Source: Pedinophyceae sp. YPF-701 (taxonomy: Eukaryota > Chlorophyta > Pedinophyceae). Taken from it: DNA of 64,000 nucleotides. The stretch lies in NCBI GenBank assembly GCA_916048055.1, contig CAJZHL010000016.1:395131-459130 (forward strand). The letters are read 5' to 3'. Of this stretch, positions 5,585 to 45,819 are shown piece after piece. Positions within the stretch are counted from its first letter, which is position 1; each line of letters starts with the position of its first letter. Position numbers and translations under genes: made by a program. The notes below the pieces were generated by a model. The model was not told where the DNA came from and did not search any database. It saw only the letters and a list, made by a program, of their open reading frames with translations.

Positions 5585-8500
5585 ATGACGGCCATGAACG
5601 GGCCGCGCCCGGCGCATTGGCCTGCGCCGCTGCCGGTGCGGCAGGTGTCGGACGCGACGGTCGTGTCCGTTCGGTTCAGAATCGCGTACTACACGGAGTG
5701 GGGCCAGAAAGTGAAGATCTTCGGGCGCGGTTCGACCTTGCTCGGCGACGGCGATGTCCAGCACGGCTGCACCATGACTTGCTTCCATCCGCAAGACAAG
5801 GTGCGTGCGGGACCGACCGCCGCGTGGCGGTGGCCGTGTGCTCAGATGCCGATCTCGCGAGTGCGGGGGTAACCAAGCCGGAACAAGCGCAGCGTGCGCG
5901 AAAGTGAGCGGTAGTTGGGCTGGCTCTGCCACGCCCGCACGGCGGGCTGCGAATGCCGCAGGCGGTTTCAGGGCCGCCAGCGTGCCGTCCCGCTCACTTG
6001 AAGAAGTTGCGCGTCCAAACTACGGCGCACGTTCACGCGACAGGACGCTGTAGGCCTGGCAGTTGCCCATTCCGTGCGAGGCGGGCGCCCTTCCGCTGCC
6101 TGCGGTCGGGCTGCTCCGCTTCAGCGACCCCCGCTTCAGCCCTCACCCTTACCACTGTACCGAACGCTGTGCGCACCGGCGCGAAGAAAACCCCTCCCAG
6201 CGGAGCGCGCGCTCTAGGTGCCCTGGCCCAGGCAGCACGACGCGGCGTGCAGCAGCCTCCTCGCACGCACCGGCGACGCTGCGTTTCCCGACTATCAGCA
6301 CAGTCACGACCCTGTGCGACCGGCGAGAGAGCGTTGCCCGCGCTGCCGCCACCGCGCTGCCCACTTGCAGCCAGCAGCGGTGGCTTTCCGCGCCGCTCTC
6401 CCGCACCTCGTCCGCCAGCCCCTGCGAAACGCCCTGCGCGGCGCTCTCCCCGCCCGCGTGCAGAAGGACCAGCTCGTGTGGGAGGCGCTCATTCCGTGCC
6501 GTCCGGGGCAGGACCTGACCTACAAGTACGCCGTGTTGGGGGGCGACAACCGCGTGGTGCACATGGAGCAGGAATACCGCACTGTCAACCTGCCCGACCG
6601 CCTCCGTGACGGAGACTACGTCGAACTCCACGACAGGCAAGACCCCGCGCCCCCGCGCTCGGCGCCACCCATCCCACGGGCCAAGCAAACCGCCACGCGC
6701 CGACGCTGCCGGGGCGCGCCCAAGACGCACGCCCACTCCCCACCCAGCGTCGGCGACACCTCCCTTATGTCCCTCCCGCAGATGGATGGCCCCTGGGCAG
6801 CCTGACGCAATCCTGCACCGCGCTGCGTTCGCCGAGGTCATCCACCGCGTGGACGTGACCGACGCAGCGGACGTGTCCCCGCGGCAGCACGCGGAGGCCA
6901 CCGCCCGCGCCCTGGCGTCCCTCCGAGGTGAACCGCGCGACCACCGTCACCACGCACGCACACCCCCGCCCGCGCGACGCGCAGCCCCCGCAGGACGCCC
7001 CCGGCCGCTCACAGCCGCCCCTCGTACCCCCGAACGCGCCGCGCAGAGTCCCGGCTGTCCCCGGCGTCCACCGAGGTCCTCGTGAAGCTGCGCGTGTACT
7101 CCCTGCGGCTCGAGCCCGGGCAGAAGCTGTGCGTCGTGGGCTCGATCAACGCCCTCGGGAGCTGGTCGACGAGCGACGCGCTCGACATGCGCTACACGGG
7201 GAAGCGGTACTGGGAGGCGGAGTTCCCGGTCGCCGTGTCGCTGTTCCCCTTCTCGTACCGATACGCGCTGTACAGCCCCGGCGGGCAGCGCACGATGGAG
7301 CACGGCGACGCGCGCGTGTGCGTGCTCGACCCCGCGAAGCCGCCGTCCGGGTCCGCGCAGGCCGCGCTGGCCAGCAGCCTCCCGGACGACCTGGGCGCGC
7401 GGCGCAGCAAGGACGAGGCGGCGCGCGCGGCGGCGCCGCCGCCGTCGAGCCCCGGGCGCACGATGCACGTGCGCGCCGCGAAGGCGCCGGTGCTGGTCGT
7501 GGTGAACGACGGGCACGTGCGGTACCAGGACAACTGGAAGGGCGCGGGGATCTGCGTGCCGGTGTTCTCGCTGCGGTCGGAGACGTCCGCGGGGTGCGGG
7601 GACTTCGAGGACGTGAAGAAGCTGGTCGACTTGGCGGTGCGGTGCGGGATGAAGCTCATCCAGCTGCTGCCGGTGAACGACACGCAGGTCCACAACGACT
7701 GGCGCGACTCGTACCCGTACTCGTGCACGAGCGTGTACGCGCTGCACCCGCTGTACCTGTCGATCGAGGTGCTGATGCGGAACGTGGACAGCCACGCCGG
7801 GCGCACGCAGCCGTCGCAGCTCGGCGGCCTCGGGCACCAGCTGTTCAGCGCGGCGGGGGAGCGCAGCAGCGGGAGCGTCGGGGGGCTCGCGCGGAGCAGC
7901 GCGGGCAACCCGGGGAACAGCCAGGGCGCGAGGAGCGACGGGAGCGGGGACGACGACGCGCTGAAGGACACGTGCGCGCCCGCGGGCGGCCGCCTGAGTC
8001 AGGCGGACCTGGTCCGCCTCAAGGCGCAGGTCGACAACGAGGTCAAGCGGCTGCGGCGGGACCTGGGGGAGCAGTCGTCGCCGCGCCCGGACATGGACTA
8101 CGAGCGCACGGCGCGCGAGAAGCAGCGCGTGGCGCGGCTGGTGTTCGACGCGTGCGGCAACGGGACGATGACGTCCCCGGGGTTCCGCACGTGGTTCCAG
8201 GCGAACGCGCACTGGGTGCGGCCGTACGCGGCGTTCTGCCTGCTCAAGGAGCTCTTCGGGACCGCGGAGCACTGGAAGTGGGGCGAGCTCGCGAAGCCGT
8301 CGGCGGAGGTCATCAACCGCCTGACGGCGAGCGACACCCCGCACTACCACGGCGTGGCCTTCACCTTCTGGCTGCAGTACCACCTCCACCTGCAGCTCGA
8401 AGAGACCTCGCAGTACGCCAAGCAGCACCGCGTCGCGCTCAAGGGCGACCTGCCCATCGGGATCGACAAGCGCTCGGTGGAGGCGTGGCTCGAGCCCCGG

Positions 8501-10294
8501 CTGTTCCGCATGGACGTCTCGCTCGGGGCGCCGCCGGACTACTTCAACCCGATGGGGCAGAACTGGGGCTTCCCCGTGTACGACTGGGTCGCGATGGCGC
8601 GCGACGACTTCGCGTGGTGGCGCCGCCGCCTGCACCACATGGCGCAGTACTTCCACGCGTACCGCATCGACCACATCCTCGGCTTCTTCCACATCTGGGA
8701 GCTCGACGGCGACAACGTGACGGGCATGCTCGGGCACTTCCGCCCCGCGCACACCCTCTCCCCGCGCGAGCTCGACCAGCTGGGCATCGCGTCGTCGCCC
8801 GAGGACCTCGCGCGGCTGCTGGACCCGTACATCACCGACGAGATCCTCGACGACGTCATGGACGGCGACGCCGCGCTCGTCGCGGAGGCCAAGGCCAAGT
8901 ACCTCGACGGGCCGGACCCGAAGACGCACCGGTACCGCCTGCGCCCCAACTTTTCGTCGGAGAAGGCCATCTGCACGGTGACCGACGGGCTCGAGGGGGC
9001 GCCGCCGGCGCTGGTGGACCGGCAGATGGCGCTGATGAACGGGCTGCTGCAGCTGCGGCAGAACGTGGTGCTCGTGCGCGACACGCGGCACCGCGAGCGC
9101 CTGCACCCGCGGTTCCAGCTGCGGCACTCGTCGTCGTTCGCGGAGCTCGAGGCGCCCGTGCAGCGCGCGCTCGTCGAGCTGCACGACGACTACTTCCACA
9201 ACCGCCACCTCGACCTCTGGACGCAGTCCGCGCAGGAGACCCTCCCGCACCTCCTGCAGTGCTCCGACATGCTGGTCTTCGGCGAGGACCTGGGCTTCGT
9301 GCCGACGTGCGTGACGCCCGTGATGCGCTCGCTCGGCATCATCGGGCTGCGCATCCAGCGCATGCCGCCGCCCGTCGAGCAGCCCGAGGGCACGCAGTTC
9401 TCGGACCTCTCGCGGCACCCGTACCTGTCGGTGGCGTCGCCGTCGTGCCACGACGTCGCGCCGCTGCGGCTGTGGTGGGAGAGCGACCCGCGCCGGACCG
9501 CGCGGTTCGCGTTCGAGATGCTCCGCGTCCCGGACCCGTCCGAGAAGTGCACCGCGGAGATGGCGGGGCTGGTGTTGCAGCACCACTTCAACTGCCCGTC
9601 CGTGTTCACGGTGCTGCTGCTCCAGGACCTGCTGGCGCTGTCGGACGACCTGAACACGCGGCCCGCGGCGCAGGAGACGATCAACAACCCCGCGGTGTTC
9701 CCGTGGTACTGGCGGTACCGCATGCACGTGACGCTGGAGGAGCTGATCGCGCACAAGGAGTTCCCCGCGACGGTGCGGGGCATGCTCGCGTCGTCGGGGC
9801 GCACGGGCGGCGGCGGGTTCGAGAAGCCGCGCGGCCCGAGCTACGTCGTCGGCGAGAGCATCAACATCGTGCCGTGCGGGCGGCGGTCGCACACGGGCGT
9901 GTGCCTGTTCAGCTCGACGCCGCCGCGGTTCGTGTCCCTCGCGCACGACACCCACGACACCGGGTCGGCCACGTCCAGCGCCGCGGGGTCGCACCGCATC
10001 GAGAGCCACCTCGACGGGATGCAGGCGCAGGGCGCGCAGGCGTCGACGTGGAGGAACCCGTGGCCGCGGGAGGGGGAGGCCGACGGCGGCGCGCACGGGA
10101 TCAAGTCGCCCGTGGACGACTTGCGGAAGCGGCGGTCGATCGACATGCAGAACAAGACGCGCATGGGCGCCGGGTCGCGCGCGGAGGCCGCGGGCCTGAC
10201 GCGGCTGTCGACGTACTCGGAGGGCGGGCAGACGGCGCCGGAGGGCAGGGTGCGTGCGGGGAGCGGCGGGCCGCCGGGCCGGCAGCACAAGTGA
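5585..10294 (+). CDS. DPE2: 4-alpha-glucanotransferase DPE2 (disproportionating enzyme 2, two CBM20 + GH77)
   Basis: Cytosolic enzyme that transfers a glucosyl unit from maltose to heteroglycan during starch breakdown in plants. Exons 5585-5800, 6464-6636, 6782-6927 and 7047-10294 give 1,260 aa. Intron 2 (6637-6781) appears to be GC-AG (donor GCAAGA), because only this join gives VELHDRWMAPGQPDAI in frame. CBM20-1 is residues about 13-128 (VRFRIAYYTEWGQKVKI); CBM20-2 is about 186-275 (VLVKLRVYSLRLEPGQKL). The GH77 domain follows, with the family's usual DPE2 insertion (DMDYERTAREKQRVARLVF). Catalytic Asp is near 720 in YRIDHILGFFHIWEL, acid/base Glu near 928 in VFGEDLGFVP, then SPSCHDVAPLRLWWESD. 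The conserved part ends at MHVTLEELIAHKEF...; the last 165 or so residues are a low-complexity extension absent from the roughly 955 aa Arabidopsis enzyme. Confidence 0.95.
6637..6781 (+). other. Probable GC-AG intron in DPE2
   Basis: The upstream exon ends CGACAG and the intron begins GCAAGA, the usual GC-donor context. The acceptor is CTCCCGCAG. Phase 2 joining restores a Trp-containing segment that matches the CBM20-GH77 linker of plant DPE2. No GT donor at a compatible position preserves frame and homology. Confidence 0.7.
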
Positions 10295-10578: not shown

Positions 10579-11595
10579 TCACGACGGCACGCTGGCCATG
10601 CTCATTTTCATGTGTCGCTTGACTTTCTTCTTGTTGCGCCCGGTGCTCAGGAAGCTCGAGCTGGGCTTGTCCCACGCGGGCGGGTCGCGCCGGAGCTCCC
10701 AGTGCGTCTTGGTCACGTACCGCCCCGGGCCGATGTCGGGCAGGGTGGTGTTGTGGCTGGCGCGTGACCGCCCGGCGGTGGAGACCGTGCTCATGGCCGT
10801 GTACTTGCGCGGAGAGTCGCGCACGATCGACGCGAGGCTCTTGTTCGGGCCCACGTCGGTGTCGTACACCACGTCGGGCGCCTGCGACGCCGCCTGGCGC
10901 TGGAACCGCGGCCGGCGCGACCGCATGTTGGAGTACTGCCGCGCGGTCTGCTCGAGGGACTGCTTGACCGACTTGTAGTCCTCAACCTCGTACCACGCGT
11001 CCGGGGCTGCGGGGGCCGCCGGGCAGGGATCTCGCCGTCAGGGCGCGCTGACGAGGCCTGCGACATGTGCGTGCGCCCGAGCGAGGCGGCGCGGCGCGAG
11101 CGGTGCGTGGCGCACCTGACGAGGACCCGAAGTCGAACTTGCGCTCGGTGCCCTTGAAGGCCACGGCGTACGTCACTCGCGAGTCTTCGATCGTCTTCTC
11201 AAAACCCTTCTTGTGACCTTGGTTGATCTCGTACACGCCGGGGCCCGGGGTGGCGGTGCTCGGCGCCTCGCGGAACCGCGGCGCCGTCGAGGACATGATC
11301 TTGTACCGCCTGGGTGACTCTGCGGGCGCGCATCGAGACGCGGAAGGTGGCATTGAGAGAGGACGCGGCAGCCCGGCGGCCGTGTGGGACCGCCGGGCGG
11401 GAAAACACACTACTACGCGTCGGTGCAGGTGCATTGACACCAGACACAGAGTGCGGGGGGCAGCATGGCGCAGGGCAGGGGTCCTGTGCGCGGGGCTGGC
11501 GGAGAGCATGTTCCTGGTGGGTGTCAGGCGCTCACCTGCCACGACGCGCGCCAAGGTGGCCTTGTTCCCGAAGTCCGCGTCGTAGAACTCGGCAC
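10579..11595 (-). CDS. Sperm-tail PG-rich repeat (STPG) protein, 3' exons, 5' end unresolved
   Basis: Probable axonemal or microtubule-associated protein. Three exons are clear: 11536-11595, 11116-11319 and 10579-11006 (GTGAGC and GTGCGC donors, phase 1). Joined, they contain two copies of a unit: YDADFGNKATLARVV-AESPRRYKIMSSTAPRF and YDTDVGPNKSLASIV-RDSPRKYTAMSTV. PG-rich signatures TPGPGVYEI and LPDIGPGRYV are present, as is AVAFKGTERKF, typical of STPG/SHIPPO repeats. It ends in a basic tail (NKKKVKRHMKM). At least one exon lies upstream because exon 11536-11595 starts with a split codon; candidates between 11600 and 12020 could not be decided. The convergent neighbour is DPE2, 284 bp away. 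With the EML-PLAT gene next door it suggests the organism builds flagella. Confidence 0.68.
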
Positions 11596-13350
11596 CTGCA
11601 CGCGGTGGGGCTGCGTCCCCGCGGTCAACGGACGCCCGCGCCGAGTCCCTGTGCACAGACTGCCCTAGGCGCGCGCGCACACCCGCGGTGCATGAGCCGC
11701 GGAACGTGGACTCATGGAGGCGACGTAGGCTGCTCAGCGCCGCCAGGCCACTTCCCGTGCGCTCGGCGGGGAGCCCGCGCACACTACCTCGTGGCATGAT
11801 AGGAAGCCTCCGCCGCGGTGGCAGGTGAGTCAGCGAGCGCGCGTGAACGGGAAAACACAGGTCCCTGGAACCAAGAGGACTGGCCGAGCGCCGCGCCGTC
11901 CTGCCACGTGGCACAACCAGGCCGCGAGGCCGCCGTCCAAGGCAGGAATCGCATGGCCGGGCCGCAGCGCGCACCCAGGCGGATAGTTCGGCCCGCCGGC
12001 GATATCGGCGTCATCTCAGACATCTAAACATCCCGTCGCCTACGGGAACGCCCCGTGCGGGGCACGCAGGCGGGTGCCCGCCGGCTCGACAGCAGCACCT
12101 GTGTGGGGGGCCGGTCGCAGACGCACCTGTGCTCTCAGGAACCGAGACATGCCCCGTGTGGTAGGGGAGGGGCCCCGTGTGGGCCGCCTTGTCCTCCATC
12201 CTGACCCGACCGCCCCCCAGGTAGCTCGCGCCGACGCCCTGCTGTGCCCGGGCGATGACTGCAGCGCCGCGCTCTTTCAACAAGCAAGAGAACGCGAAAC
12301 CGAAGCAGCCTGTGCTGACTGGCCCTCGCCTCCGCGCTGCGCGCCCTGGTAGCCCCGCTGAGCCCCGCGGCTGCGCGCTGGCCACCCCGTGATGCTGCCA
12401 GCGCTGCACTCAGTCCGACGCAGCACACCGGGCCGGTGCTTGCCGCGCTGGACATGGGCGCGGCGCCCCGGCCGAGGCGAGAACACTGTCGAGCCACCGG
12501 TGCAGCGGCCGGGCGCACAGCGGCGCTCCTGGAGACGAGAGACGCGCCGGTTTAATAGTGCGCACCGCTGCGATGTTGAGCCTGCGGGCACGGAACGGAC
12601 GCCCCGGTTCGAGCGGTTTCGGATGCGCGAGGCCGCGCACATCGTAGCAGAGCACGCCTATCCGCCGCGCTCGCTGGAGCAGGCGGCGCGGAAGCGCGAC
12701 TGCACGGAGGGCGTCTCAAAACCGCTGGGTGCAGCTGGCGACGGGACCGGCGCCTCGGACGGACGCGGCGGCTGCAAGGTGCGCGCGGACGACACCACGC
12801 CCCGCCCTGACGCTCGTCGCCCGGGAGCGAGCGTTGCGTCCCGTGCATGGCCGCAGCGAGCGCTCAGGGGTGCAGCGGGCCCCTCGAGCGCCCGCGGGGT
12901 GGTCTCGCCGGGCCTCTGCGCGCGTGGCTCGCCCGGCCGCCCTGTATTCGAGTGAAGAGGTCCGGGGCGCGCGTGTCGCGCTCGCGCGGCCCCTGTTCTC
13001 GCGCGGCGAACGCACGCTAGCTCCGGCCACTGTGCGGGCCGTCCTGGCGCTCGGCGTCGCGCGGAGCCACGCGCGCTTTGAAGTATGTGCTTCCAGACGA
13101 GGCCCCGCTGGCTATCCACCTTGCGAGCGCGGCAACAGACCCCGCAGCGTCACGCGCCCGCCCTGCTATGGGCTCGCTCGATCTTCTCCTGCCGCCACCG
13201 CAGCGTCCCCGCCATCTCACGCGCGCTCCCGCGACTACAGAGCCCGGTATACTCAGAAGCACCTCGCCGACCACCGAGACGGCGCGAACCAGCCGCCACA
13301 CCCCCCTTCCCTGCAGGCACTGACCACGCACCCTCAACAACCAAGCGGCC
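11596..13350. other. Divergent region between STPG and the EML-PLAT gene
   Basis: About 1.75 kb that should contain the missing 5' exon(s) of the STPG gene at its left end and the promoter of the giant EML-PLAT gene at its right end. Several open frames on both strands are Arg/Pro/Ala-rich and look like non-coding high-GC sequence. No recognisable gene. Confidence 0.4.
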
Positions 13351-16300
13351 ATGGAGACCAACCGCTCCCGCCGCCGCGCCCCCGCCGGCGAGGCTCCGAG
13401 CGTCGGGCTCGCCACGGCCGGCCCCTCCCGCGCCCCCGCGCCACCGCCCCCCCGCGGGCCGCCCATGCAGTCTGCCGTCCCTCCCGCGCGCATCTCCACG
13501 CTGGACCTCCCGCGCACGCAGAACACCGAGCCCCTCCAGGTGCAGCCGAAGAACCTCCCCACGCCCTACTGGTCCACCAACCGCTGGGGCATGCCCGCGC
13601 CTGAGTCAGTCCCAGCGCCACAGCCGGCGCGCGCCGGCTCGAAACGCCCCGCGTCCGCGCCGCGGCGCCCCCCGGCCACGGTTTCGTCGGCGTCGTCCAC
13701 CGCGGCGCCGCGCGTGAAGTCCGCGCGGCACGCCGGCGGCGGCCCGAGCGCGCCCCCGCGCACTGCGTGGGCGGTCGGCGGCTCCGAGGCCGGGCAGCCG
13801 GCGGCGCCGCTGGGCCCGCCGGCGTCCCCCGGGCGCGTCGCGGCGCTGGAGAGGGAGATGCGGGCCACGCTGGGGTCGATGGCGTCGTTCAACGAGGACG
13901 AGAAGGCGCTGCTGCTGCGGGCGTTCCGACTGCGGGAGCGCAGCCTGCGGCAGCGGGGGATCTTCCAGCCGCCCGGGCTGGCGACGGAGCGGGACTTCCG
14001 GAAGGTGTGGGCGACGTTCTCGGTGGAGGTGTCGCGCGAGGACGTGGTGGCGCTGTTCCAGCGGTACGGGTGCGACCGCGAGGGCCGGCTGCCGTACGAC
14101 GTGTTCGCGCAGACGATGTTCGGCTCGCGGACGCGGCTGATCGGGCTCGAGCCGTCGCACAAGGGCCCGTTCAAGGCCGGCGAGGACTACTCGTTCCGCG
14201 GCCAGTTCAAGTACCGCTTCTGCCGCAAGGCGGTCTACACGCCGACGGACTGGGACGGCGCGCTCGGGGCGCGGTCCGCGGAGCTCCCGGGGCCCGGGCT
14301 GGAGCTCGAGCACGTGCACGGGTACGCCGGGATCGACGGGACGGCGAGCAACCTGTTTTACAACAAGGCGGGGCACGCCGTGTACTACTGCGCGGGCGTG
14401 GCGGTCGTGCACGACAAGGACGAGAACCGGCAGCGGTTCTTCCTGGAGCACAACGACGACATCAAGTGCCTCGCGATGCACCCCGACCGCGTCCTCGCGG
14501 CCACGGGGCAGGTCACGCCCAAGTACGGCGCACCGTGTGTGCTGGTGTGGGACACCACCGGCGCGCCGCCCGAGACGCGGCAGCGCATCGACTTCCCGAC
14601 GGAGGAGGGGTACGGCTACCGGCAGATCGTCGCGGTGCAGTTCAGCCCGTGCGGGCAGCGCCTCGTGGTAGTCACGGGCGACGACCGGCACACGGTCCAC
14701 GTCTTCGAGTGGGCCTCGGGCGCGCTGCTGTTCGAGGGGATCGGCCACAACGGCGCGCCGCCGCAGGTGTTCGGGGCGGTGTGGAACCCGTTCCCGCGCG
14801 AGTCGTTCCTCGACCCCGCGCTGCCGGCGACCGGCACGCTATCCAAGGCGCCCGCTGCGGGCCCAGATATGTTCGTCACGTATGGCGTGAAGCACTTGAA
14901 GATATGGATCCGCGGACCGGACGGAAAGGGGCGGGAGACGTACGCGAGCCAGCACGGGAAGTTCGGGAAAGCACGGGTGCGCGCCGCGCCCCGCACCGCC
15001 GCGTAGCAGCCACCACCACACCTGCGCCGGCGGCTGGCACTTCCAACCACAGCACACACCCCCCCTCCCACCGCGCGCAGGTCGGCGACGTTCTGTCCGC
15101 GTGCTTCCTCCCGCGCGGCCTCCTCGCGACGGGCACGCAGTCCGGCGCCATCCTCCTCTGGGACATGGGCGCCACCAACACCCCCCACTCCTTTGGCTGC
15201 TGTGTCCGGATCGAGGCCGCGCACTCCCCGGGGCCCAAGGCGCGCAGCCCGTTCGACGGGCAGCTCACCCTGCAGGGCGTCCGCGGCCTCGTGGTGCGCA
15301 AGGGGTGCTCGGAGCTGGTGTCGGGCGGGTCGGACGGGCAGCTCATTGTGTGGGACCTGCTCGGCGGGAGGCTGGGGCTGGGGCGGCCGATGAAGGGGAT
15401 CCGGTTGGACGACGTGGGCGACAAGATGGTGCCGTCGGTGCGCTCGCTGGACGCGCACCCGGTGTCCGGGTCGCTCCTGGTCGGGACGTCGGCGTGCGAC
15501 GTGCTGGAGGTCCCCGGCGACGGCGACGAGGCGCCGGCGCCGCTCGTGGACGGGCACCGCGCGGACCTGCACCACGTGGCGTTCCACCCGAAGCGCGGGC
15601 ACAAGTACGCGACGGCGTGCGAGTCCGGCGTGGTGTCGTTCTGGGACGCGCGCCGGCGGCAGCTGCTGGCCAAGGTGAACATCGGGCTGCCGGCGTGCGC
15701 GGTGGACTTCTCGCCCAACGGCCTGCACCTCGCGATCGGGTGCGGCGAGGGCTCGGTGCGCGTCCTCGCCACGTCGGACCTCCGCAAGACGCTCAAGGCG
15801 GCCCGGCACTGCATCGAGGCCATCCACGAGGTGCGGTACTCGCCCGACGGCGCCAAGCTGGCCGTGGGGTCGCACGACAACTTCGTGGACGTGTACGACG
15901 TCGAGCGCGGGTACGCGCGCCTCGCACGCTTCGCGGGGCACTCCTCGTACGTCACGCACATCGACTGGAGCGCGGACTCGCGCGTGGTGATGAGCAACTG
16001 CGGGGCGTACGAGCTGCTCTACTTCGACGCGGCGACGGGCCGGCAGGTCAAGGGCTCGCAGCGCGACACGCGGTGGGCGTCGTGGACGTCCGTGCTGGGG
16101 TTCCCGGTCATGGGCGTGTGGCGCACGGGCGAGGACGACACGTACGACGGAACGGACATCAACGCGCTGTGCCGGTCGGTGCTGGCGCCGCCGGGCGGGC
16201 GGGACGCGGGGGAGTCGGCGCGCGTGGTGCCGCAGCCGGACACGCTCGCCGGGCAGGGCGCGGTGGTGGTGACGGCGTCGGACGACGGCATGGTGCGCAT

Positions 16301-19300
16301 GCTCAACTACCCGTGCGTGGTCGAGAACGCGCCGGCGCGGGAGTACCGCGGGCACTCGAGCCACGTGACGTGCGCGCGGTTCTCGCCGAACAACGGCTGG
16401 GTGGTCACCACGGGCGGCCACGACCGCGCGGTGTTCCAGTGGCGCGTGCTGCCCCGCGCGGACCCCCAGGCGAAGCGGCGGTCGCTCGGGCCGAACGCGG
16501 TGTGGGAGCGGCCGGAACGGATGCTGGTGGAGCCGTCCGTGCCGATTCCGGGCGACGACGGCGCCGCGGCGAAGCGCGAGAGGAAGCTGCCGGGTCCGCG
16601 GCACAAGATGGAGCGCGGAGAGGCGGAGTACGACATCAAGGTGTACACGTCGGACATCCGCGGCGCCGGCACGGACGCGAACGTGTTCTGCATGATCTAC
16701 GGCGAGCACGGGCAGACGATGGAGCTGCGGCTGGACAACAACAAGAACAACTTCGAGCGCGGGCGCGAGGACGTGTTCACCGTCAAGGCGCGCGACGTGG
16801 GGAAGCCCGCGAAGCTGCGCATCGGGCACGACAACAGCGGGATGGGTCCCGGGTGGCACCTGGACCGCGTGGAGGTGCGCAACCGCGGCGAGGGCCCCAC
16901 GGCGCCGCTGGTGACCTTCCAGTGTGGGCGGTGGCTCGCGACGGACGAGGACGACCGGCAGATCGTGCGGGTGCTCGCGGCGGACGGGAGCGGCGTGAAG
17001 GCGTGCAAGTACCGCGTGGTGGTGCACACGTCGGACATCAAGGGCGCCGGCACGGACGCGAACGTGTTTTTGACGCTGTACGGCGAGGGCGACGACGGGT
17101 CGTTCGGGCCGGTGCGGCTCGACAACTCGAAGAACAACTTCGAGCGCAACATGGAGGACGTGTTCGAGGTGGAGTGCATGGTCCAGGACATCAAGTACAT
17201 TCGCATCGGCCACGACGGGTCCGGGCTGGGCCCCGCCTGGCACCTGAATGATGTCATCATCTCGTGCCCCGGGAAGCCGACGCTGACGTTCGACGCCGAC
17301 CAGTGGCTGCCGGAGGAGGACGGCGGGGACACGTACGTCGTGTTGTCGCCCGAGGGCCGCGACAAGCCGCCCGTGCACACATACAAGGTCGAGGTCTTCA
17401 CCACCGACATGCGGGGCGCCGGGACGGACGCCAACGTGCACCTCGTCATGTTCGGGGAGAACGGCCGGCAGATGGGGCCGACGCCGCTCGACACCAGCAA
17501 GTGCGCCCCCCGCCCCAAGTTGTCTGCCGCGCTGTCGTGCCGCGTGTTTGATGCCACGTGCAGCTTCGCGGCCGTCGTGGCCGAGCGGCAGTCCCCCGGC
17601 TGTGCTGCTACGTCGACGGCGCGGCACCTGCTCCCGCGCTCACCGTTCCGCCGTCGTCCTCGCCCGTGCAGGAACAACTTTGAGCGGGGCGCGCACGACA
17701 TCTTCCTGCTGAAGAGCCCCGACCTCGGGGCGCTGCACGAGATCGAGATCGGGCACGACAACAAGGGCCTGGGTCCCGGGTGGCACCTGAGCCAGGTGGT
17801 CATCACGAACACCACCACGCAGGCCCGGTACAACTTCCCGTGTCACCAGTGGTTCGACCGCAAGGAGGGCGACGGCCTGACGCGCCGCCGCCTCCAGGCG
17901 AGCGACGCGGACTCCGCGATGACGACGTACACGGTGACGGTGGTCACGTCGGACCTGCGCGGCGCGGGGACGGACGCGGGGGTCTACATGGAGATGCACG
18001 GCAAGGACAAGGACGGCGGCGAGGTGGTGGTGCCGCGGCAGACGCTCGACACGTCGAAGAACAACTTCGAGCGCGCGCAGGTGGACGTGTTCATCCTCCC
18101 GCAGATGCCGAACACCGCGGAGCTGACGCACGTGATCGTCGGGCACGACAACAAAGGGTTGGGGCCCGGGTGGCACCTGGACCACGTGGAGGTCGTGAAC
18201 GAGGCGACGGGGCTGCGGCAGTACTTCGACTGCCGGAAGTGGTTCGACAAGAAGGAGGACGACGGGCTGATCGAGCGCAAGCTGGACGCGAGCAAGGGGA
18301 GCGCGGGGTTCGACGACATGGTGCCGTATCGGATCGTGGTGCAGACGTCGGACGTGAAGGGCGCGGGGACGGACGCGGACGTCGAGGTGGAGCTGTTCGG
18401 GAAGATCGAGAAGGACGGGCGGCTGGTGGCGCGGTCGAGCGGGAAGCAGAAGCTGGACAACGGTGGGAAGAACAACTTCGAGCGCGGGCAGCGGGACGCG
18501 TTCACGATCGTGTGCCCGAACCTGGGGAAGCTCGACCGGATGTGGATCGGACACAACAACAAGGGGCTCGGGCCGGGGTGGCATCTCGCGTGAGTGCACT
18601 CGCCCCTCCGGCCCTGTGCGCCTGCTCGCTCGCTCCGAGCCGACGCTGGCGTGCTGCTGCACGTAGACCGTTTGAACGCACCGATGCGTGGCCCCGACGC
18701 GCTGTGCATCCCGCGTTTGCGTGTGCGCAGGAACGTGGAGGTGACGTCCGTCTCGACTGGCACGCACTATGTGTTCCCGGCGTACCGCTGGCTGGACACG
18801 AAGGAGACGCCGTACTCCACGGACGCCCTCCTGTACCCCGAGGGGTCGGACGAGGCGGCGACGCGGCCGCACAGGTACCGCATCGTGACGCACACCAGCG
18901 ACATCCGTGGCGCCGGCACGGACGCCGGCGTGTCGGCGCAGATCCACGGCACGGAGGGCGTCACGCGCTCGATGTCGCTGCACACCCGCGGCAATCCCTT
19001 CGAGCGCGGCAACCGCGACGAGTTCGTGATCGAGGCCGCCAACGTCGGCGAGATGCAGAAGCTCACCATCGGGCACGACAACCGCGGGCTGGCGTCGGCG
19101 TGGCACCTCAGCCACGTCGAGGTCGACGACCTCACGACGGGCCAGCGCTGCATGTTCTTCTACGGCGGCTGGCTCGACAAGACGAACGGGCTGCAGGTGA
19201 CACTGGAGCCCACGGGCGACGTGGGCGCGGAGCAGCCGCGGCGGTACCACGTGCGCTGCAAGACGGCGGACAAGCGCGGCGCGGGGACGGACAAGGACGT

Positions 19301-22300
19301 CACGGCCTTCCTCGTCGGCGAGGACGGCACGCGGTCCGAGGCCCTCGCGTTGGAGAAGTCCAAGAACGACTTTGAGCGCGGGCAGCTGGACGAGTTCCTG
19401 GTGGAGCTGCCGCCCGGGACGGAGCTGGGGGAGCTCAAGGAGGTCGACATCGGGTTCGCGGAGAAGCAGTCGGTGGCCGGCGCGCTGGGAGCGCTGACGG
19501 GCATGGCGTGGGGGCTGGAGTACGTCGAGGTGGTGGACATGCAGTCGAACGTGACGTACTTCTTCCCGAACCGGCACGGGTGGCTGGACAAGAAGCAGCA
19601 GCGCGTCGTGCTCCCGCGCGGCCTCCCCGGGGAGGAGGCGAAGGCCCGGTTCAAGGTCGTGGTCACGACGTCGGACATCCGGGGCGCGGGCACGGACGCG
19701 AACGTGGCGCTCAACCTGTTCGGGGAGCACGAGGACGGCACGAAGGCGGTGTCCGGTCCGCTGCCGCTGGACTCCGGGCGGCGGAACGACTTCGAGCGCG
19801 GGCACAAGGACGAGTTCAGCGTGGAGAGCGTGCCGCTGGGGGAGATCGTGCGCGCGGAGCTGAGCAAGGACGAGTCGGGGCTGGGGTCGGCGTGGCACTG
19901 CGAGAGCGTGGAGGTGACGGACCTGCAGACGTCGCAGGTGTACTTCTTCCCGTGCGGCAAGTGGCTGGATGGGAAAAAGGACCCCAACTCGCTGACTCAG
20001 GTTCTGCTGCCGGAGGGCAAGGCCGGGGAGGTGCTGTACGACTACGTGGTGACGGTGTACACGTCGGACATCCGCGGCGCGGGCACGGACAGCGACGTGA
20101 CGATGGAGCTGCGCGGGACGCAGGCCATGTTTGGGCCGCGGCGGCTCGACAGCTCCGAGAACGACTTCGAGCGCGGGCGGAAGGACGTGTTCCACGTGGA
20201 GGGTCCGGACGTGGGCGACGTCGAGGAGCTGGTGATGGCGACGAACAACAAGGGCATGGGGGCCGCGTGGCACCTGGACTCTGTGGAGGTGTTCCATCCG
20301 CTGCAGAAGAAGTCGTACTTCTTCGTGTGCAAGGACTGGCTCAAGTACGACAAGACGACGAAGATGGACGGGTGCCGGAAGGTCCTCAAGCCCGGCGAGG
20401 GCCCCAGCGGCGACAAGAAGCGCTACCGCGTGGTGACGACGACATCCGACCTGCGCGGCGCGGGGACGGACAGCGACATCTTCGTGACGGTGTACGGCGA
20501 CAAGGGCGACACGGGCGAGCGCGCGCTGGACGCCGGCAAGGAGGCCTTTGAGCGCGGCAACCAGGACACGTTCTTTGTGGACGCGCGCGACATCGGCAAG
20601 GTGCAGCGCCTCAAGGTGCGCAGCAACGGCAAGGGCATGGGCGGCGCGTGGCACCTGAGCACGGTCGAGGTCACGGACCTCGCGGAGGGCGCGGCGACGC
20701 TGTTCTCGTACCGCGACTGGATCGACAAGAAGAAGGGCCTGACGCAGGAGCTGCTGCCCGACACGGACGGCGACGGGGCCGGGGACGACGTCGGGGCGCG
20801 GGGCCGCAAGGACTACGACGTGCGCGTGTACACCTCGGACAAGCGCGGCGCCGGCACCGACGCCGACGTGCACGTCAGCCTGAAGGGCGACTGGGGGTTC
20901 ATCGGGGAGTCGATGCTGCCGGCCAAGGGCAAGGCGTTCCAGCGCAACAAGCGCGACGAGTTCACGATCTCCGGGACGGACTGCGGGACGCTGCAGGAGC
21001 TGGGCGTGCGCATCGAGGGCGGCGGGAGCTGGCACTTGCGGCAGATTGAGGTGCTGGACAAGGCGACGGGGGAGCTGTACGCGTTCCCGTGCGACGAGGA
21101 GTTCGACGACGAGACACCGCAGCGGACGCTGAAGGAGGGGCGCGTGCTCGCGGCGGAGGCGGCGGAGGCGGCGGCGGCGGACCCGCAGCAGCAGTACCGC
21201 GTGCAGGTGTGGACGGGGGCGGCGGGGGGCGCGGGGACGGACGACGACGTGCTGGTGACGGTGGTGGACGCGGAGGGCAACGTGCTGGGCGGCGAGGCGC
21301 AGAACCTGGACGACAACAAGAACAACTTCGAGAAGGGACGCGAAGACAACTTCTTCATATCCGTGCCCGAGTCCAAGGGCCTGCGCGCGCCGGTGGCCAA
21401 GCTGGTCGTGGAGAAGAAGAAGCGCGGCATGTCCCTCGGCGGCGACTGGCAGCTCGACCGCATCGCCGTCCTCGACGTCGCGCGCGGGCAGCAGCTCCTG
21501 TGGAAGGCGCAGGGTGCGTGGGAGGGCTGGTTCGGGACGAAGCACGGCGTGGTGCACGCGTGGGAGGTCGACAAGCACCTGCAGGGCGCCGACCAGGACC
21601 TCGAGCTGGTCGCCGGCGCGGAGCACGTCGGCGGCCCGCGCGGCGCGGCGCAGGCCCCAGAGAGCCAGCACGAGGGCATTGAGGACAAGTACAGGATCGC
21701 GGTGACGACGACGAAGAAGATGGGCGCCGGGACGGACGCGGAGGTGTTCGCGGAGCTCGAGGGCGAGAACGGGCAGCGCTGGGAGCCGGTCCTGGAGCAG
21801 CGCAAGGAGCACTTTGAGTCTGGGAAGACGGACGAGTTCTTCGCTGACACTGACGTGGGCCTGGGGGAGTTGAGGAACCTGCGGCTGTGGCACAGCGGCA
21901 AGGGGCTGCTCGCGGGGTGGCACTGCGACAACGTCGTGGTCGAGCGGCTCAACACGGGCGAGGCGTGGCAGTTCGACTGCAAGTCGGACGTGCCGAAAGC
22001 CAAGTCGGCCAGCCAGGCCGGCAAGGTCATACCGGCGAAGAAGATCCGCGAGGCGCGCGCGACGGAGGAGGAGCCGCCGCCGCCGGTCAAGGCCGAGAGC
22101 CCCGCGGAGAGCCCCGCGGAGAGCGAGCGGCCGCGGATCACGCGGAGGGAGAGCGTGGCCTTCGGGATGGCGGAGCCGGACCCCGACGCGGACCCCGGGG
22201 AGTACGAGATCGTGTTCAAGGTGAGCGCAGCCTCTGGGAACGAACGCCCCGTTCATGAAGGATGTCGCGCAATGATGCACGCCCCTCCCTTGCAGACAGA

Positions 22301-23444
22301 CAATCAAAAACCTAAGATAACCGCCACACCGCGGGTGTTTCCGGCCGTTGAGACCGTTGCCTGCCCGTGTGCGACCTTCCTGACGCGCCCTCGCTCCCGC
22401 TGCGCTGCAACCGCGTTCGTGCAGACGGGGACGCGCGAGGACGCGGGGACGGATGCGCACGTGGAGTGCCAGGTGTACGGCGAGCGCGGGGGCTTCCAGC
22501 CGATGCTGGACCAGATCAAGCTGTCATTCGATCAGGGCTGCGAGGACACGTTCGTCGTCAAGTCCGACTGGGGGGACCTCGGCGAGCTCGTGCAGGCCAA
22601 CCTGTGGCACGACGGGTCCAACGAGAGCCCCGACTGGTGGCTCGCGTGGCTGTCGGTGCGCCACCTGCGCTCGGGGCGCATCTGGCGGTTCCCCTGCGGC
22701 AAGTGGGTCAAGGAGGGCCCCGACGACCCCACCGTGCTGTTCCCAATGGGCGACCGGCTGGAGACGGTGCGCAGCACAGTGCGGCGGCAGTCGATGGCAC
22801 TCCGCGCCACCCAGACGGAGCAGGAGCAGGATGCGGCCGCAACGAAGATCCAAGCGGCGTTCCGGGGCCGCCGCGACCGGAAACGAGTGACCGACATGCG
22901 GCGCGACAAGGCAGAGGAGGACGCGCGGCGGGACGCCGCCGCGACGACGATCCAGGCGGGCTACCGCGGGCACCGCGACCGGAATTCGGTCGCCGCGGTG
23001 CGCGCCGACGCGGACGCCGAGCGCCAGCGGGCCGCGGAGGACGCCGAGGAGGCGCGGCGCGGGGCGGAGGAGGCCGCGGAGGTGCAGAGGCAGAACGAGG
23101 CGGCGACGAAGATCCAGGCGGTGTACCGCGGCAACCGGGACCGCAAGGTCGCGGCGGAGCGCCAGGCGGCCCCCCCGCAGGCCCCGCCGCCCCGGGAGGT
23201 GCAGGAGCAGGCAGCGGCGAAGATCCAGGCGGCGTTCCGGGGGCAGCGCGACCGGAAGCGCGCGGAGTCGCGGCGGCAGCGGCGCGCGGAGGGGCGGTAC
23301 GAGGGGTCGGACGACTCGTTTTCGCAGTTCAGTCGCGACACGTGGGAGGAGCACTTCCAGGAGGTGGAGGGGGTGCAGGTGCCCTACTACTTCAACATCA
23401 TGACGGGGGAGAGCACGTGGGAGCGGCCGCCGGGGTTCGACTAG
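13351..23444 (+). CDS. Giant EML-type WD40 / 14x PLAT / 4x IQ / WW protein (about 3,157 aa)
   Basis: Exons 13351-14976, 15081-17500, 17672-18589, 18731-22220 and 22425-23444; introns 104, 171, 141 and 204 bp, all GT-AG with matching phase. The start is GCCATGG. Residues 1-250 are Pro/Arg-rich then EF-hand-like (FQRYGCDREGRLPYDVF). The EML/HELP region (YTPTDWD, GYAGIDGTASNLFY, HNDDIKCLAMHPDRVLAATG) and tandem WD40 repeats run to about 1005, including the EML hallmark GHSSYVTHIDWSADS. Fourteen PLAT/LH2 domains occupy about 1058-2923, each with a (T)SD-x-(R/K)GAGTD motif, NNFERG and GPGWHL. Four IQ motifs (KIQAAFRGRRDRKR type) lie at about 2950-3100, and a C-terminal WW domain (PYYFNIMTGESTWERPPGF) ends the protein. 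EML binds microtubules; PLAT arrays are known from LOXHD1 of hair-cell stereocilia; IQ motifs bind calmodulin. A membrane-to-axoneme linker is a plausible inference. Introns 2 and 4 are multiples of three without stops. Confidence 0.9.
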
Positions 23445-23658
23445 CGCTGGAGCGGGAGGGGGGGTTGTGAGCCGCGAGAGATCTCGATGTGTCAGGAAGC
23501 AGAGCATGCGGCGCATGCCGTCGATGCACGGGCCGTTCGGCGGGGGGCGCTTGGACACGGGTTCACTCACTCTGAGCGGGGTTCGCTCGGGTGTCTGTTC
23601 CGGGCTCGACGTGCGCTGCGGCGCTGCCTGCCCCGCGCCCGCGCCCGGTGCGCCCGCG

Positions 23659-24967
23659 TCACTGTTTCCTCCGCAGCATCGCGAGGCAGCGGTACGCGTC
23701 GTGGTCGTTCAGTGCCGACTCCACGTTCGTCTCGCCGAACAGCGCCTCCACCTCCATCCCCGCGGCGTCCGCCAGCAGCGCCAGCTCCCCCACGGTATAA
23801 AACCGCTGCTGCACCACCTCGTCGTACGAGTCGTCCGCGACGTCGGCCCCGCTCATGCTGATCTGGACCCTCCTGTGCAGCACCTGCAGGGATGCGCGCA
23901 GGCGCACTGCGCGTTGCTCGCTCGCGGTCGGCAGGGGCGCTGTGGCGCGGCACACACACCGGGCGCTCGCGCACCTGTCTAATGTCGTCGAACCTGTCGT
24001 AGGGCGAGCCCCACTGCACTTGGACGCGCCTGCCGTGCTCTTCGCAGTCCCAGCGGTCGGCGGCGAGCGCCTCGGGCGACGTGAGCGACCCGTCGAAGAT
24101 GTCGCCGGGGTGCGACAGCTCGACGATGAACACGCCGTCGGGCGCCATCGCCGCCGCGACGCACTGGAAGAACGCCTTGGCGTCGAGCACCTCCGTGAGG
24201 TGCATCATCGTGCCCAGCATGGTGACGACGATGTCGAACGGGGCGCCCGGAGGGGGTGGAAACGACCTCATGTCGCCCTGGACCAACGCCACGTCGACGC
24301 CCGCCTCCCTCGCCTTCTCGCCAGCGTAGTCCAACATCTCCTGACAGATGTCCAGCCCCGTCACGCTCAAGCCCCGCTTCGCCACCTCCACAGCGTGTCC
24401 ACCGGGCCCACAGCCAACGTCCAACAAACTCTGCGGAGCGCACACACCGACGTGATCAGCGGACGCCCTATGGCGAAATCCACGCACCATTCCATCGTGC
24501 TGACCCGGTCCATCCGAGAAATCCCCGGACGGGTGTGAGGCGGCGTTTCACGCCTGGCAAGAGGCTGCCGGGTGCCCGGCGGAGACCCACGGAAATGCCC
24601 GGCTCACCTTTGGGGCATTCTGACCGCGACGGGAACGGTACGCCTCGACGATGAATTCTGCCTCTTGCTCGAAATCCCGGTACATAAATGCTGACTCGTA
24701 CAGTATGGGGCGGCGGTACACTTGCGCGCCACTCACGTCTGTGGCCCCCGGCGCGCTGCCCGCACTGCCGGGCCCAGGGCCGGACTTGGCGCGCACAGCA
24801 GCCTGCACGGCGCGTGGTCTTCGCGCCGGTTCGTGGAGTTCGCGGCGAGGAAGACTCCACGAGCTGCGGGCGCGCAGGCAAGGAGCGTGGCAGGAGACAC
24901 AAGGCGGCCGGTGGTGCGCCGTGGCAGACACAGCAAGCGCCCAAGGGGCGCCCACATGCGCAGCCAT
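23659..24967 (-). CDS. SAM-dependent methyltransferase (class I, YRDF family), possibly plastid-targeted
   Basis: Exons 24608-24967, 23975-24430 and 23659-23883 (donors GTGAGC and GTGCGC, phase 0) give 346 aa. The fold is read from YRDFEQEAEF, motif I SLLDVGCGPGGHAVEVAKRG, acidic loop VTGLDICQEML, VQGDMRSF, and FDIVVTMLGTMMHL. The C-terminal strands include RVQISMSGADV and FYTVGELALLADAAGMEVEALFGE, as in DUF-like methyltransferases whose N-terminus reads LYDxAFxYRDF. The first 80 residues (from ATG 24967) are Ala/Arg/Ser-rich without acidic residues for most of their length, resembling a plastid transit peptide; this is inference, and the conserved part starts at VYRRPILYESAFMY. Substrate unknown. 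Convergent with the EML-PLAT gene (214 bp between stops). Confidence 0.8.
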
Positions 24968-39519: not shown

Positions 39520-42500
39520 ATGGCTCCGCTGAAGGCGTTTCAGGCCCCGTATCCGGACACTAGGCACTCACCTGGTATCCCAGATGCCGGCCCGGGCAAC
39601 GGAACGACGCCTCCGGCCACAACCACGGCCCCGCCGCCCCCAGCAACGGACCCGGTGGCGGTGGCACGGATTTGCGCCAACGCGGTCGCGACAGCCGACC
39701 TGGACTGCGAGAACTCGATATTGTGGGCCGTCAACACGACCGCGACCGCGTCCTGCCACAAGTGCGTCGCGCCAGGCACCGAGGCGTGCCCCGCGGGCCA
39801 CGGAGGCACCGACTGCTCCCAGTGCAGGAACGCCAACGCCTGTCCGCCGCTGCACCTCGAGAACGGCACGACGCTGGCCGCGGTGGGGTGCTCCTCCCAC
39901 ACGATCGCGCCGTCCCAGGAGGAGCTGTGGGGCATACCAGGCGCGATTCTCCCAGGCACGAGCCCCCCAACGACCCCCGCGGTCGCGCGCAGCGCACGCG
40001 CTCTCGCGACGCCGCTCCTTCCCCGCCGTCTCGTGCGGCTGGTCGGCGATCAGGTTCTGCCGGTTTCCCGCACATCACGCGCCCCGGACGGGGCCGCCAG
40101 CGCACGTCCACCTCTGCACGAAACTCGCCCGCGTCGGCGCGTCAGCGACGTTTTGACGCCACCGGCGCTCTGGCCCGACTCCGTGCTGACAGGTGTGCAC
40201 GCACGTGCAGGGCGCGGCCTCGCGAGCGGTCCTCGGAGGCCGTACAAGGACCTGACGTGCAGGTGCGGCGGCGTGCCAAGCGACGAGTCCACCGCGTACG
40301 TCTGCGGCATGTCTACGGGCGACCTGGGCGAGGAGTTCAACTGGCAGTTCAAGGTCCACCCGCGCGGCGAGCAGGACCCCGGCGAGGTCGACATCTGGGT
40401 CCGTGCGCGCGCGCCCATGCCGTCGCAGGACGCCGAGCCCGACTGCACGGACGAGGAGCGGGAGCAGGGGACGTGCCCGACGCGCGAGAGGTATCGCTTT
40501 GCGTACCCGCAGTGGTGGGAGGGCAACCTGACGCGCTGCGCGTGGGGCGCGGCTGCTTGTACAGGCAAGGCACTCCCGGCATGACACTCGCTGTTGATTT
40601 GTGGGCACATCGAGGACTAGAACCGCCTTCTGACCGAACGCAGCGCTCGATCTGGTCGCTGACGCGACACGCTTCGCCACGCGAGGCCCGTGCCGCCCGG
40701 TGCCAGAACAAGCGGAGCGCTGACCGTCGTTGTTCGCTGGTGATTGCTGCGACCCGCAGGGCAGCTCGAGCACGCGGACGCGTCCGGGGCCGGGTGCATC
40801 CTCTACCAGTGCGCGGAGAGCTCGATCCAGTGTCCCGCGGGCGGCGTCGAGCGCTGCCCCGGCTTCCGCACCGTCCCGCCATACTGCGACAACCCCGCGG
40901 GCGAGGCGGACAAGTACTGGCAGCGCAACTGCAACCCCATCCTGCTGCCGCAGTCGGGCCTGCCCGCCAACCTGCAGTGCCTGGCCACGCCCGCCCCGGG
41001 GGGGCGTTTCCAGTGCTACTTCGACCAGGAGGGGGGGTATTTGGCGTCGCTGGGGCTGCAGTGCAGCACGGGCGCGTGCCTGTACGACGGGGGCGGGCCG
41101 ACGCCGACGCCCGGCCCCGGGGGTGCGGGCAGGGCCAGTTTCGGCGAGGGCGCGTGTCTGGCGGTGCTGGGAGGGCTCATGTTGGCCCTGCTGGTCGTCG
41201 CGCACGGCCTGGTGCGCCGGGACGCTGCGCGGTCGCGGGCGCTGTGCCGCGCCGCTCTCGGGGACGACGTCGACGACGACGGGCCGGCGCAGCCGCAGCG
41301 GGTGTCGCAGGACGAGCATGGCGCGTCGGCAAGCGAGGAGGCCGCTCGCAGGGCGGGGTACGCGCCCGTGACGTCGGACGGGCTGGGCCGGGTACGGCCC
41401 GGGCGCCAAGCAGGACGCAGCTCCGCGCACGTGCGCTGGGGCGCGGTGCTCACCTGGACGGACGTGACCTACCACGTGTTTGACGCAGCGGGCCGGGCGC
41501 GCGCAGTCCTGCGTGGCGTTACGGGCGTCGCGGGCCCCGAGGCACTGACCGCCCCGCTCGCCGACGGCAGGGCGGGCCCCACCGCGGTCGAAGCCGCCGG
41601 CCGCCGCGGCTGCCTGCTCGCCGTAATGGGCCCGTCGGGCGCAGGCAAGACCTCCCTACTCGACGTGCTCGCTGGGCGGCGGCCCGAGTGCTGCGTGGGG
41701 GGCGAGATCACCGTCAACGGGCGGGTGGCGTCGCCGTCGGCGCTGCGGCGCGTCACCGGGTACGTCCTGCAGGACGACGTCCTGCACGGGACGTCGACGG
41801 CGTTCGAGTTTCTTATGTTCCACGCGGAGCTGCGGCTGCCGGGGAAGAGCCGCGAGGAGCGCGTCGGGCGCGTGCTCGGCGTGCTGTCGGAGCTGGGGCT
41901 GACTCGCGTGGCGCACAGCGTCGTCGGCGACGAGCTCGTCCGCGGCCTCTCTGGCGGCGAGCGCCGCAGGCTCTCCATCGCCGCCGAGCTGCTGGCGTCG
42001 CCGGGGCTGCTCCTGCTGGACGAGCCCACGTCGGGGCTGGACTCCACGAACGCCGCGCGCGTGGTGCGGCTCGCGGCGTGGCTCGCGCGGCGGGGGACGA
42101 CGATCGTGATGTCGATCCACCAGCCGCGGCCGGACCTGCTGCGGCTGATGGACCGGCTGGTGCTGCTGTCGTCGCGCGGGCAGTGCGTGTACTCGGGCTC
42201 GATGGACCGCGCGTCCGCCATCCTCGAAGCCGCGGGGCGCCCCGCGCCCGACGCAGGCGTCAACATTGCCGACCACCTGCTGGACCTGATGATCGAGCTC
42301 CCGGAGGCGGAGGTGGACGCAATGGTGGCGACCTTCGAGCAGTCGGACGCGCACGCGGAGAACATGCGCGTGGCGCTGGCGCTAGAGCACGAACCGCTTG
42401 GGGTGCCGCACCCACGCAAGAGAGCCCCGCTCTCCGCACAGCTGCGCGCGCTGTGCGTCCGGAACCTCCGCGCGACGTACCGGCATCCGTTCGCCGTCAA

Positions 42501-45500: not shown

Positions 45501-45819
45501 GTTCCTGCTCTCGCTGCGGGACGCCAGCCTCCTGCTCCGCCTGCCGTCGGTGCTGTCGTACGCGCGGCCGGCGTTCGAGGCGCTGCTGTCGAACGAGTTC
45601 CACGGAGCCGACGGGTTCAGGTTCACCGCGCACGTGCGCCCGGGCGTGCCGGCGGATGACGTGCCGCACGTGGACGTGACGGGCGACGAGGTGCTCGAGA
45701 CGCTGGGGTTCCGGCCGGGCTTCTTCGCGAGAGGGCTGGTGGCGCTGGTGATGCAGATTGGCGGCGTGATGGCCGCGTCGTACGTGCTCCTGCGCGCACG
45801 CGGGCGCACGCAGGGGTGA
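39520..45819 (+). CDS. Double-length ABCG (white/WBC-type) transporter with Cys-rich ectodomain
   Basis: ATP-driven exporter, probably of lipids or hydrophobic metabolites at the plasma membrane (family knowledge). Exons 39520-39955, 40211-40564 and 40760-45819 give 1,949 aa; both introns seem to start with GC (GCACGA, GCAAGG), all phase 1. Residues 1-400 form a Cys-rich region (CHKCVAPGTEACPAG, CPAGGVERCPGF) ending in a helix (ACLAVLGGLMLALLVVAHGL), like the N-terminus of plant ABCG24/28. NBD1 then NBD2 each have GPSGAGKTSLLD, LSGGERRRLSIA, LLLLDEPTSGLDS and SIHQPRPD. Each is followed by a six-helix TMD with NRFGVLYFILLF or NRLGLLFFMLLY and NEFHG. Both ATP sites are canonical, unlike PDR-type full transporters. 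A charged linker of about 250 aa joins the halves. No signal peptide is visible at this start. Confidence 0.9.
41914..42198 (+). repeat. NBD1 segment duplicated in NBD2 (copy 1 of 285 bp)
   Basis: Aligns without gaps to 44446-44730. It covers the signature, Walker B and H-loop coding region. The last 105 bp (42094-42198 against 44626-44730) appear identical, while the membrane domains of the two halves have diverged strongly. Confidence 0.88.
44446..44730 (+). repeat. NBD2 segment duplicated in NBD1 (copy 2 of 285 bp)
   Basis: Gap-free partner of 41914-42198 (offset 2532). Mismatches are scattered in the first 180 bp and absent in the last 105 bp, suggesting gene conversion between the halves. 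Confidence 0.88.

Follow-up and report, generated by a model that had tools for sequence, protein, structure and literature searches.

A green-algal EML–PLAT fusion protein with an IQ/WW tail in Pedinophyceae sp. YPF-701, a candidate scaffold of the flagellar base

Introduction

In the pedinophyte alga YPF-701, a single gene encodes a protein in which an EML-type head is followed by a long PLAT array, a stretch of four IQ motifs and, at the C-terminus, a WW domain. Judged by its sequence, this protein is a member of a conserved green-algal EML–PLAT family, many of whose members also end in a WW domain; relative to that family it is the IQ tail that looks new, the EML–PLAT join and the WW end being already present in relatives. 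As to function, we give about even odds (a probability of roughly 0.5) to the reading that the protein is a structural scaffold anchored on microtubules at the flagellar base, with predicted location and binding.

The family has been labelled LOXHD1-like or PLAT-like in databases, and its members bear a predicted microtubule-binding head on the array. They offer a specific candidate protein, testable in Chlamydomonas, for a long scaffold anchored on microtubules, as well as a route to asking what role LOXHD1-type PLAT arrays play outside animals. The alga itself, named Akinorimonas japonica, is described in the available text of its account as wall-less, with a single flagellum able to coil on the cell surface (PMC12574857). 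The window, by which we mean the whole 64,000-nucleotide stretch that was analysed, covers positions 395131-459130 of contig C16 in a genome assembly of 27.9 Mb and 32 contigs.

Gene structure and domain architecture

An earlier note on this DNA had proposed that five exons splice into one frame, and this was borne out. The joined exons measure 9474 nt and encode a 3157-aa frame with one stop, which is terminal, and the introns run from GT to AG in 4/4 cases. Third-position GC content (GC3) is uniformly high in exons 1 to 5 (0.952, 0.979, 0.974, 0.972 and 0.953, or 95–98%), unlike that of the introns, where it is at most 0.825 in every frame. The features, in window coordinates, are as follows.

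13351..14976, + strand: exon 1, with the N-terminus, HELP and the start of the first EML propeller (aa 1-542)
13567..13590, + strand: YWSTNRWG motif (aa 73-80), G80 invariant in 16 sequences
13846..14130, + strand: conserved N-terminal module (~aa 166-260), resembling an EF-hand by eye, its ligand positions lost
14287..14406, + strand: HELP motif (aa 313-352), Pfam PF03451
14977..15080, + strand: intron 1, GT..AG, 104 nt
15081..17500, + strand: exon 2, with the remaining EML propeller sequence, PLAT 1, PLAT 2 and part of PLAT 3 in a single uninterrupted frame
15576..16448, + strand: second EML beta-propeller (aa 708-998)
16620..22733, + strand: 14 PLAT domains (aa 1056-2921), split by introns 2-4
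17501..17671, + strand: intron 2, 171 nt, without stop, in phase
17672..18589, + strand: exon 3, with the rest of PLAT 3, PLAT 4 and part of PLAT 5
18590..18730, + strand: intron 3, 141 nt, with a single in-frame TGA
18731..22220, + strand: exon 4, from the rest of PLAT 5 through the start of PLAT 14
22221..22424, + strand: intron 4, 204 nt, without stop, in phase
22425..23444, + strand: exon 5, with the rest of PLAT 14, the IQ tail, the WW domain and the stop
22848..23255, + strand: four IQ motifs (Pfam IQ), starting at aa 2960, 2994, 3048 and 3085
23343..23435, + strand: C-terminal WW domain (aa 3125-3155), Pfam WW

The deposited YPF-701 protein P0121 (3109 aa) is the product of the same locus, and by eye it agrees with the five-exon model at all four junctions (KARVGDV, TSKNNFERG, HLANVEV and VFKTGTR). 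Its N-terminus differs: the model starts elsewhere, and an additional intron excises YWSTNRWG. By a strict pattern this motif lies near the N-terminus in 10 of the 24 other fusion proteins described below, as well as in P0021 and P0052, which are EML proteins without PLAT. Because it recurs in the fusion relatives, we prefer a single exon 1 to the deposited N-terminal model, and the comparison favours an uninterrupted exon 1 as more likely than the extra intron. Since introns 2 and 4 contain no stop and have lengths divisible by three, their retention would leave the frame intact, and retained-intron isoforms are possible. The link between the WD40 and PLAT parts is independent of splicing, because exon 2 alone spans the second propeller to PLAT 3. 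The EML head, the PLAT array, the IQ motifs and the WW domain are one gene.

The domain content claimed earlier (EML/HELP-WD40, 14 PLATs, four IQ motifs and a terminal WW) held in both counts and order under Pfam and a repeat profile, and in the search of the joined protein HELP, both EML propellers, PLAT, IQ and WW were all above the Pfam cut-offs or found. HELP (PF03451) scored 41.9 bits (cut-off 27), Beta-prop_EML (PF23409) 127.7 bits (cut-off 88.2) and Beta-prop_EML_2 (PF23414) 303.6 bits (cut-off 90), PLAT was found by Pfam in exons 2-5, and the best solved match of the EML part was the EML1 tandem propeller 4ci8 (E 3.1e-72). The head is predicted to bind tubulin. The EF-hand-like module at ~aa 166-260 gave no Pfam match.

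Other features of the window are recorded in their own right. A 4-alpha-glucanotransferase (GH77) with a starch-binding CBM20 lies at 7082-10291 (+). Upstream of the fusion gene, the frame at 10982-11974 (−) contains a STATPGPGVYE stretch, which is SHIPPO-repeat-like by eye, and had no Pfam match; a methyltransferase at 23567-24490 (−) adjoins the 3′ end on the opposite strand. Further along are an ABC transporter frame (40744-45816, +) with ABC and ABC-2 membrane domains in two stretches each, an 18/36-bp tandem repeat (50004-50363) within a frame of 2216 aa that encodes thrombospondin type 1 domains, and a similar 18-bp array at the window end (63613-64000). An Rfam scan of the 64-kb window returned no match. 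Elsewhere in the assembly, EML/WD40 matches with identical scores occur in two pairs, C5:1097202-1097753 with C7:3292-3843 and C1:1684485-1684976 with C30:10831-11322; one member of each pair lies less than about 11 kb from the contig start, and duplicated or redundant contig ends are possible.

A family of EML–PLAT fusions in green algae

The earlier note knew of no described protein that combines EML and PLAT with IQ motifs and a WW domain, a claim that survives in part. The first two protein searches listed 240 proteins, with the best ~8000 candidates scored in each, so that a wider spread is possible; among those listed, our own profiles found both EML and PLAT in at least 25, namely P0121 and 24 others. 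Uniqueness of the EML–PLAT fusion is thereby ruled out, and the novelty of the WW domain falls likewise (11/24), leaving that of the IQ tail (0/24). Named organisms account for 12 of the 24 (Astrephomene, Pleodorina, Edaphochlamys, two from Chlamydomonas, two from Dunaliella, Tetrabaena, Gonium, Myrmecia, Tetradesmus and Scenedesmus), and all 12 are green algae; the other 12 are metagenomic or uninformatively named. The database label is “Lipoxygenase homology domain-containing” or “PLAT domain-containing” for 9 of the 12 named fusions. The suggested search for the same architecture in algae thus yielded at least 12 EML–PLAT fusion proteins from named green algae, none with the IQ tail. A literature search, of shallow coverage and with subscription journals mostly outside it, surfaced no description of an EML–PLAT fusion.

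A quick tree was built from 92 EML heads, comprising 22 fusion rows (the window and P0121 being entered separately) and 70 non-fusion heads taken from the top of a list of 97, with the fusions P0011, P0129, P0132 and P0179 left outside by a length filter. It placed 21 of the 22 fusion rows in one clade (SH-aLRT 97). The remaining one, P0145, fell in a neighbouring clade together with P0025 (544 aa, no PLAT found) and with P0041 and P0044, which are EML proteins without PLAT. Explaining the fusion label takes two changes on this topology, as many as its starred branches force. Either a single fusion with one loss or two separate fusions would fit, and P0025 may simply be cut short.

Inheritance of the PLAT array

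The repeat profile built from the window counts 14 PLAT domains, and the Pfam PLAT model likewise finds 14 places at the locus. Both GTD and N[ND]FE, whose positions we take to be Ca2+ ligands in lipoxygenases, are kept in 9 of the 14 (PLATs 1-5, 7-9 and 12), and part of the putative Ca2+ motif is lost in PLATs 6, 10, 11, 13 and 14. In PLAT 3, the one repeat so compared, both motifs align with those of the 11R-lipoxygenase 3vf1.

For proteins with at least 9 PLATs, the order of the repeats was compared by pairing their PLATs with those of the window as reciprocal best matches and counting the longest same-order run. Fusion arrays kept 5-12 in-order pairs in 19 of 21 cases (median of all 21, 8), the misses being P0145 (2) and P0179 (1). 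Non-fusion arrays, mostly LOXHD1-type and with green-algal stand-alone arrays included, kept 1-3 pairs, and 0 of 101 were colinear; the in-order score falls with distance anyway, so that these 101 arrays serve as a control for order and not for distance. Because 19/21 fusion arrays and 0/101 non-fusion arrays keep the PLAT order, the array has been inherited as a unit within the fusion family and is not colinear with LOXHD1. LOXHD1-type proteins form the majority of the other matches listed in the second relative search, and membership of the window protein among LOXHD1 orthologues is ruled out, the array order not being common to both.

A second, divergent PLAT array is present in YPF-701 at C31:1592761-1598302 (L009 3262-8803), with 14 PLAT pieces in three open frames. 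By eye it was colinear with none of the nine arrays with which it was compared; the last of its open frames is nearest to arrays that stand alone in Edaphochlamys and Chlamydomonas, and the other two frames are not.

The IQ/WW tail

Pfam recognises the IQ motifs in four stretches (64.5 bits, cut-off 20.3) and the WW domain at 27.0 bits (cut-off 26.9), or at 32.8 bits when given as a 36-aa piece. A WW-like end, often degenerate, is recognisable in 11 of the 24 relatives (P0122-P0126, P0128-P0132 and P0137), and a lineage-specific WW is thereby ruled out; in most of these the second Trp is Tyr or Phe. The Pfam WW model gave E ≤0.0015 on the tails of all five relatives tried and exceeded its cut-off in one of the five. 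A profile made from ten relatives’ tails found the WW of the window (E 6.8e-5) and that of P0131 (7.1e-6), with its top match in P0260 (4.1e-14), an ankyrin/IQ/WW protein; since this strongest match lies outside the EML–PLAT family, the profile detects WW domains generally. The 13 relatives without a recognisable WW end are cut short, misread or different. P0142, for instance, ends in a different sequence with a listed PF05721 domain, presumably PhyH.

Neither strict nor loose patterns found an IQ motif in the tails of the 24 fusion relatives (0/24), a count to which the 13 without a WW end add little because their tails are cut short, misread or different; among them is P0183, the sister of the window in the tree, which is cut or misread before the tail. 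The loose pattern gave one stray match outside the tail in each of P0135 and P0142. When the last PLATs and the IQ/WW tail served as the query, none of the 43 matches apart from the protein itself combined PLAT with IQ (~8000 candidates scored). PLAT and IQ share one other YPF-701 frame, a polycystin-1-like one on contig C10 (C10:1155627-1159898, − strand; L010 5628-9899), where REJ, PLAT and IQ form part of a 6499-aa open frame; since this frame carries both, the pairing is not in itself unique. The IQ motifs seem to have been added locally, in the linker ahead of an older WW, and the IQ tail looks lineage-specific, so far found only in YPF-701.

A possible scaffold at the flagellar base

The mechanism that we consider plausible is one in which the EML double propeller would fix the protein to microtubules, the PLAT array would protrude as a rod binding partner proteins and/or membrane, and the WW domain would dock a proline-rich partner. 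In YPF-701, the four IQ motifs before the WW would allow calmodulin to load the tail, and Ca2+ may also act directly via those PLATs that keep their ligand motifs. We infer the location and the Ca2+/calmodulin control, and membrane binding by the array is likewise conjectural; the protein may link membrane to microtubules with a Ca2+ response, as the earlier note had suggested.

The distribution of the family bears on this reading in two ways. Among the proteins listed, the fusion is present in Chlamydomonas and Dunaliella, which are flagellates, and this was counted in favour, as was the single flagellum of YPF-701 (PMC12574857). It is also carried by Tetradesmus, Scenedesmus and Myrmecia, which are mostly without flagella in vegetative life, and this was counted against, as were the partial loss of the Ca2+ motif (PLATs 6, 10, 11, 13 and 14), the degenerate second WW Trp and the 13/24 relatives lacking a WW end.

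A hint as to location comes from POC2 and MOT51, lipoxygenase-homology proteins that the available text of the Chlamydomonas transition-zone proteome includes (PMC4888484), in a list repeated in an excerpt of a later paper (PMC6970386). POC2 at the transition zone is restated elsewhere together with POC2 antibody staining there (PMC6215392, in part), and a table identifies it as Cre10.g436000, “polycystin-related” (PMC5430608, in part). In these excerpts, the experimental hint that comes closest places such proteins in the transition zone, at the base of the flagellum, and not in its shaft (PMC4888484, PMC6215392). C. schloesseri has the fusion P0125 and C. incerta a stand-alone PLAT array, P0192; because a Chlamydomonas relative thus also has an array without EML, P0192 counts against equating POC2/MOT51 with the fusion, as does the “polycystin-related” entry for POC2 (PMC5430608). 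YPF-701 has both the fusion and a stand-alone array (C31), as in the fusion/stand-alone pair of Chlamydomonas species, and by analogy it is tempting to see in this pair the POC2/MOT51 pair. A bolder version, which we regard as doubtful, would make the EML–PLAT–WW family a transition-zone tether between doublet microtubules and ciliary membrane, with POC2 or MOT51 as its Chlamydomonas member and with the pedinophyte gain of IQ motifs producing a calmodulin-gated link that controls the single coiling flagellum.

Instead of a scaffold at the flagellar base, the protein might be a general cytoplasmic microtubule scaffold, on cortical or root microtubules or the spindle, with no special flagellar tie and with PLATs that bind proteins and not lipid. 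This is rather unlikely but has some appeal, in that the EML proteins of animals work on microtubules of the cytoplasm and that the fusion occurs in mainly non-flagellate algae (Tetradesmus P0137, Scenedesmus P0142 and Myrmecia P0131); however, none of the 12 named fusions among the matches listed comes from a lineage that, like Ostreococcus and Chlorella, has lost flagella outright. The original proposal, in which the protein would connect the flagellar membrane to axonemal microtubules along the flagellum and respond to Ca2+, seems to us unlikely. It would suit the EML head, the PLATs with partial Ca2+ motifs and the IQ motifs, and LOXHD1 is described, in the available text, as spread along the length of stereocilia (PMC8051682); the only ciliary hint for green-algal lipoxygenase-homology proteins in the excerpts is nevertheless the transition zone (PMC4888484), and, as a weak further point, no mention in flagellar proteomes surfaced in a literature search at the level of its listings. 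That the locus is not one gene, whether because the EML, PLAT and IQ/WW parts belong to separate genes or because the assembly is chimeric, is highly improbable and was rejected, even with retained-intron forms possible, given that EML and PLAT share exon 2 and that PLAT 14, IQ and WW share exon 5, each in one open frame, that EML and PLAT are joined in 24 other listed proteins (e.g., P0135, with 2605 aa and a contig of 8533 bp), that exon GC3 is uniform and that the deposited model agrees.

Comparison with known systems

The YPF-701 protein resembles EML proteins in having HELP and both tandem EML propellers above the Pfam cut-offs. We know of no PLAT, IQ or WW in EML1-6, and the N-terminus of EML1-4 is a coiled-coil trimerisation domain, in contrast to the conserved EF-hand-like module of the YPF-701 protein, whose EML head falls in the clade of fusion heads. 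LOXHD1, with 15 PLAT repeats in hair-cell stereocilia according to the available text (PMC8051682), shares the long head-to-tail PLAT array and the same repeat motif, but the PLAT order differs (at most 3 in-order pairs across the 101 non-fusion arrays). LOXHD1-type arrays have no EML, IQ or WW among their listed Pfam domains; the YPF-701 protein has all three and thus departs from the PLAT-only composition of LOXHD1. The likeness of POC2 and MOT51 is one of description, in their lipoxygenase homology domains.

The 21 longer members of the fusion family itself have 9-22 PLATs, compared with 14 in YPF-701, the second WW Trp in the family is often Tyr or Phe, and the four tail IQ motifs of YPF-701 set it apart from all of its relatives (0/24). 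P0125 (Chlamydomonas schloesseri), P0131 (Myrmecia bisecta) and P0128 (Tetrabaena) have the N-terminal module in common with the YPF-701 protein and follow the same order of EML, PLAT array and WW-like end.
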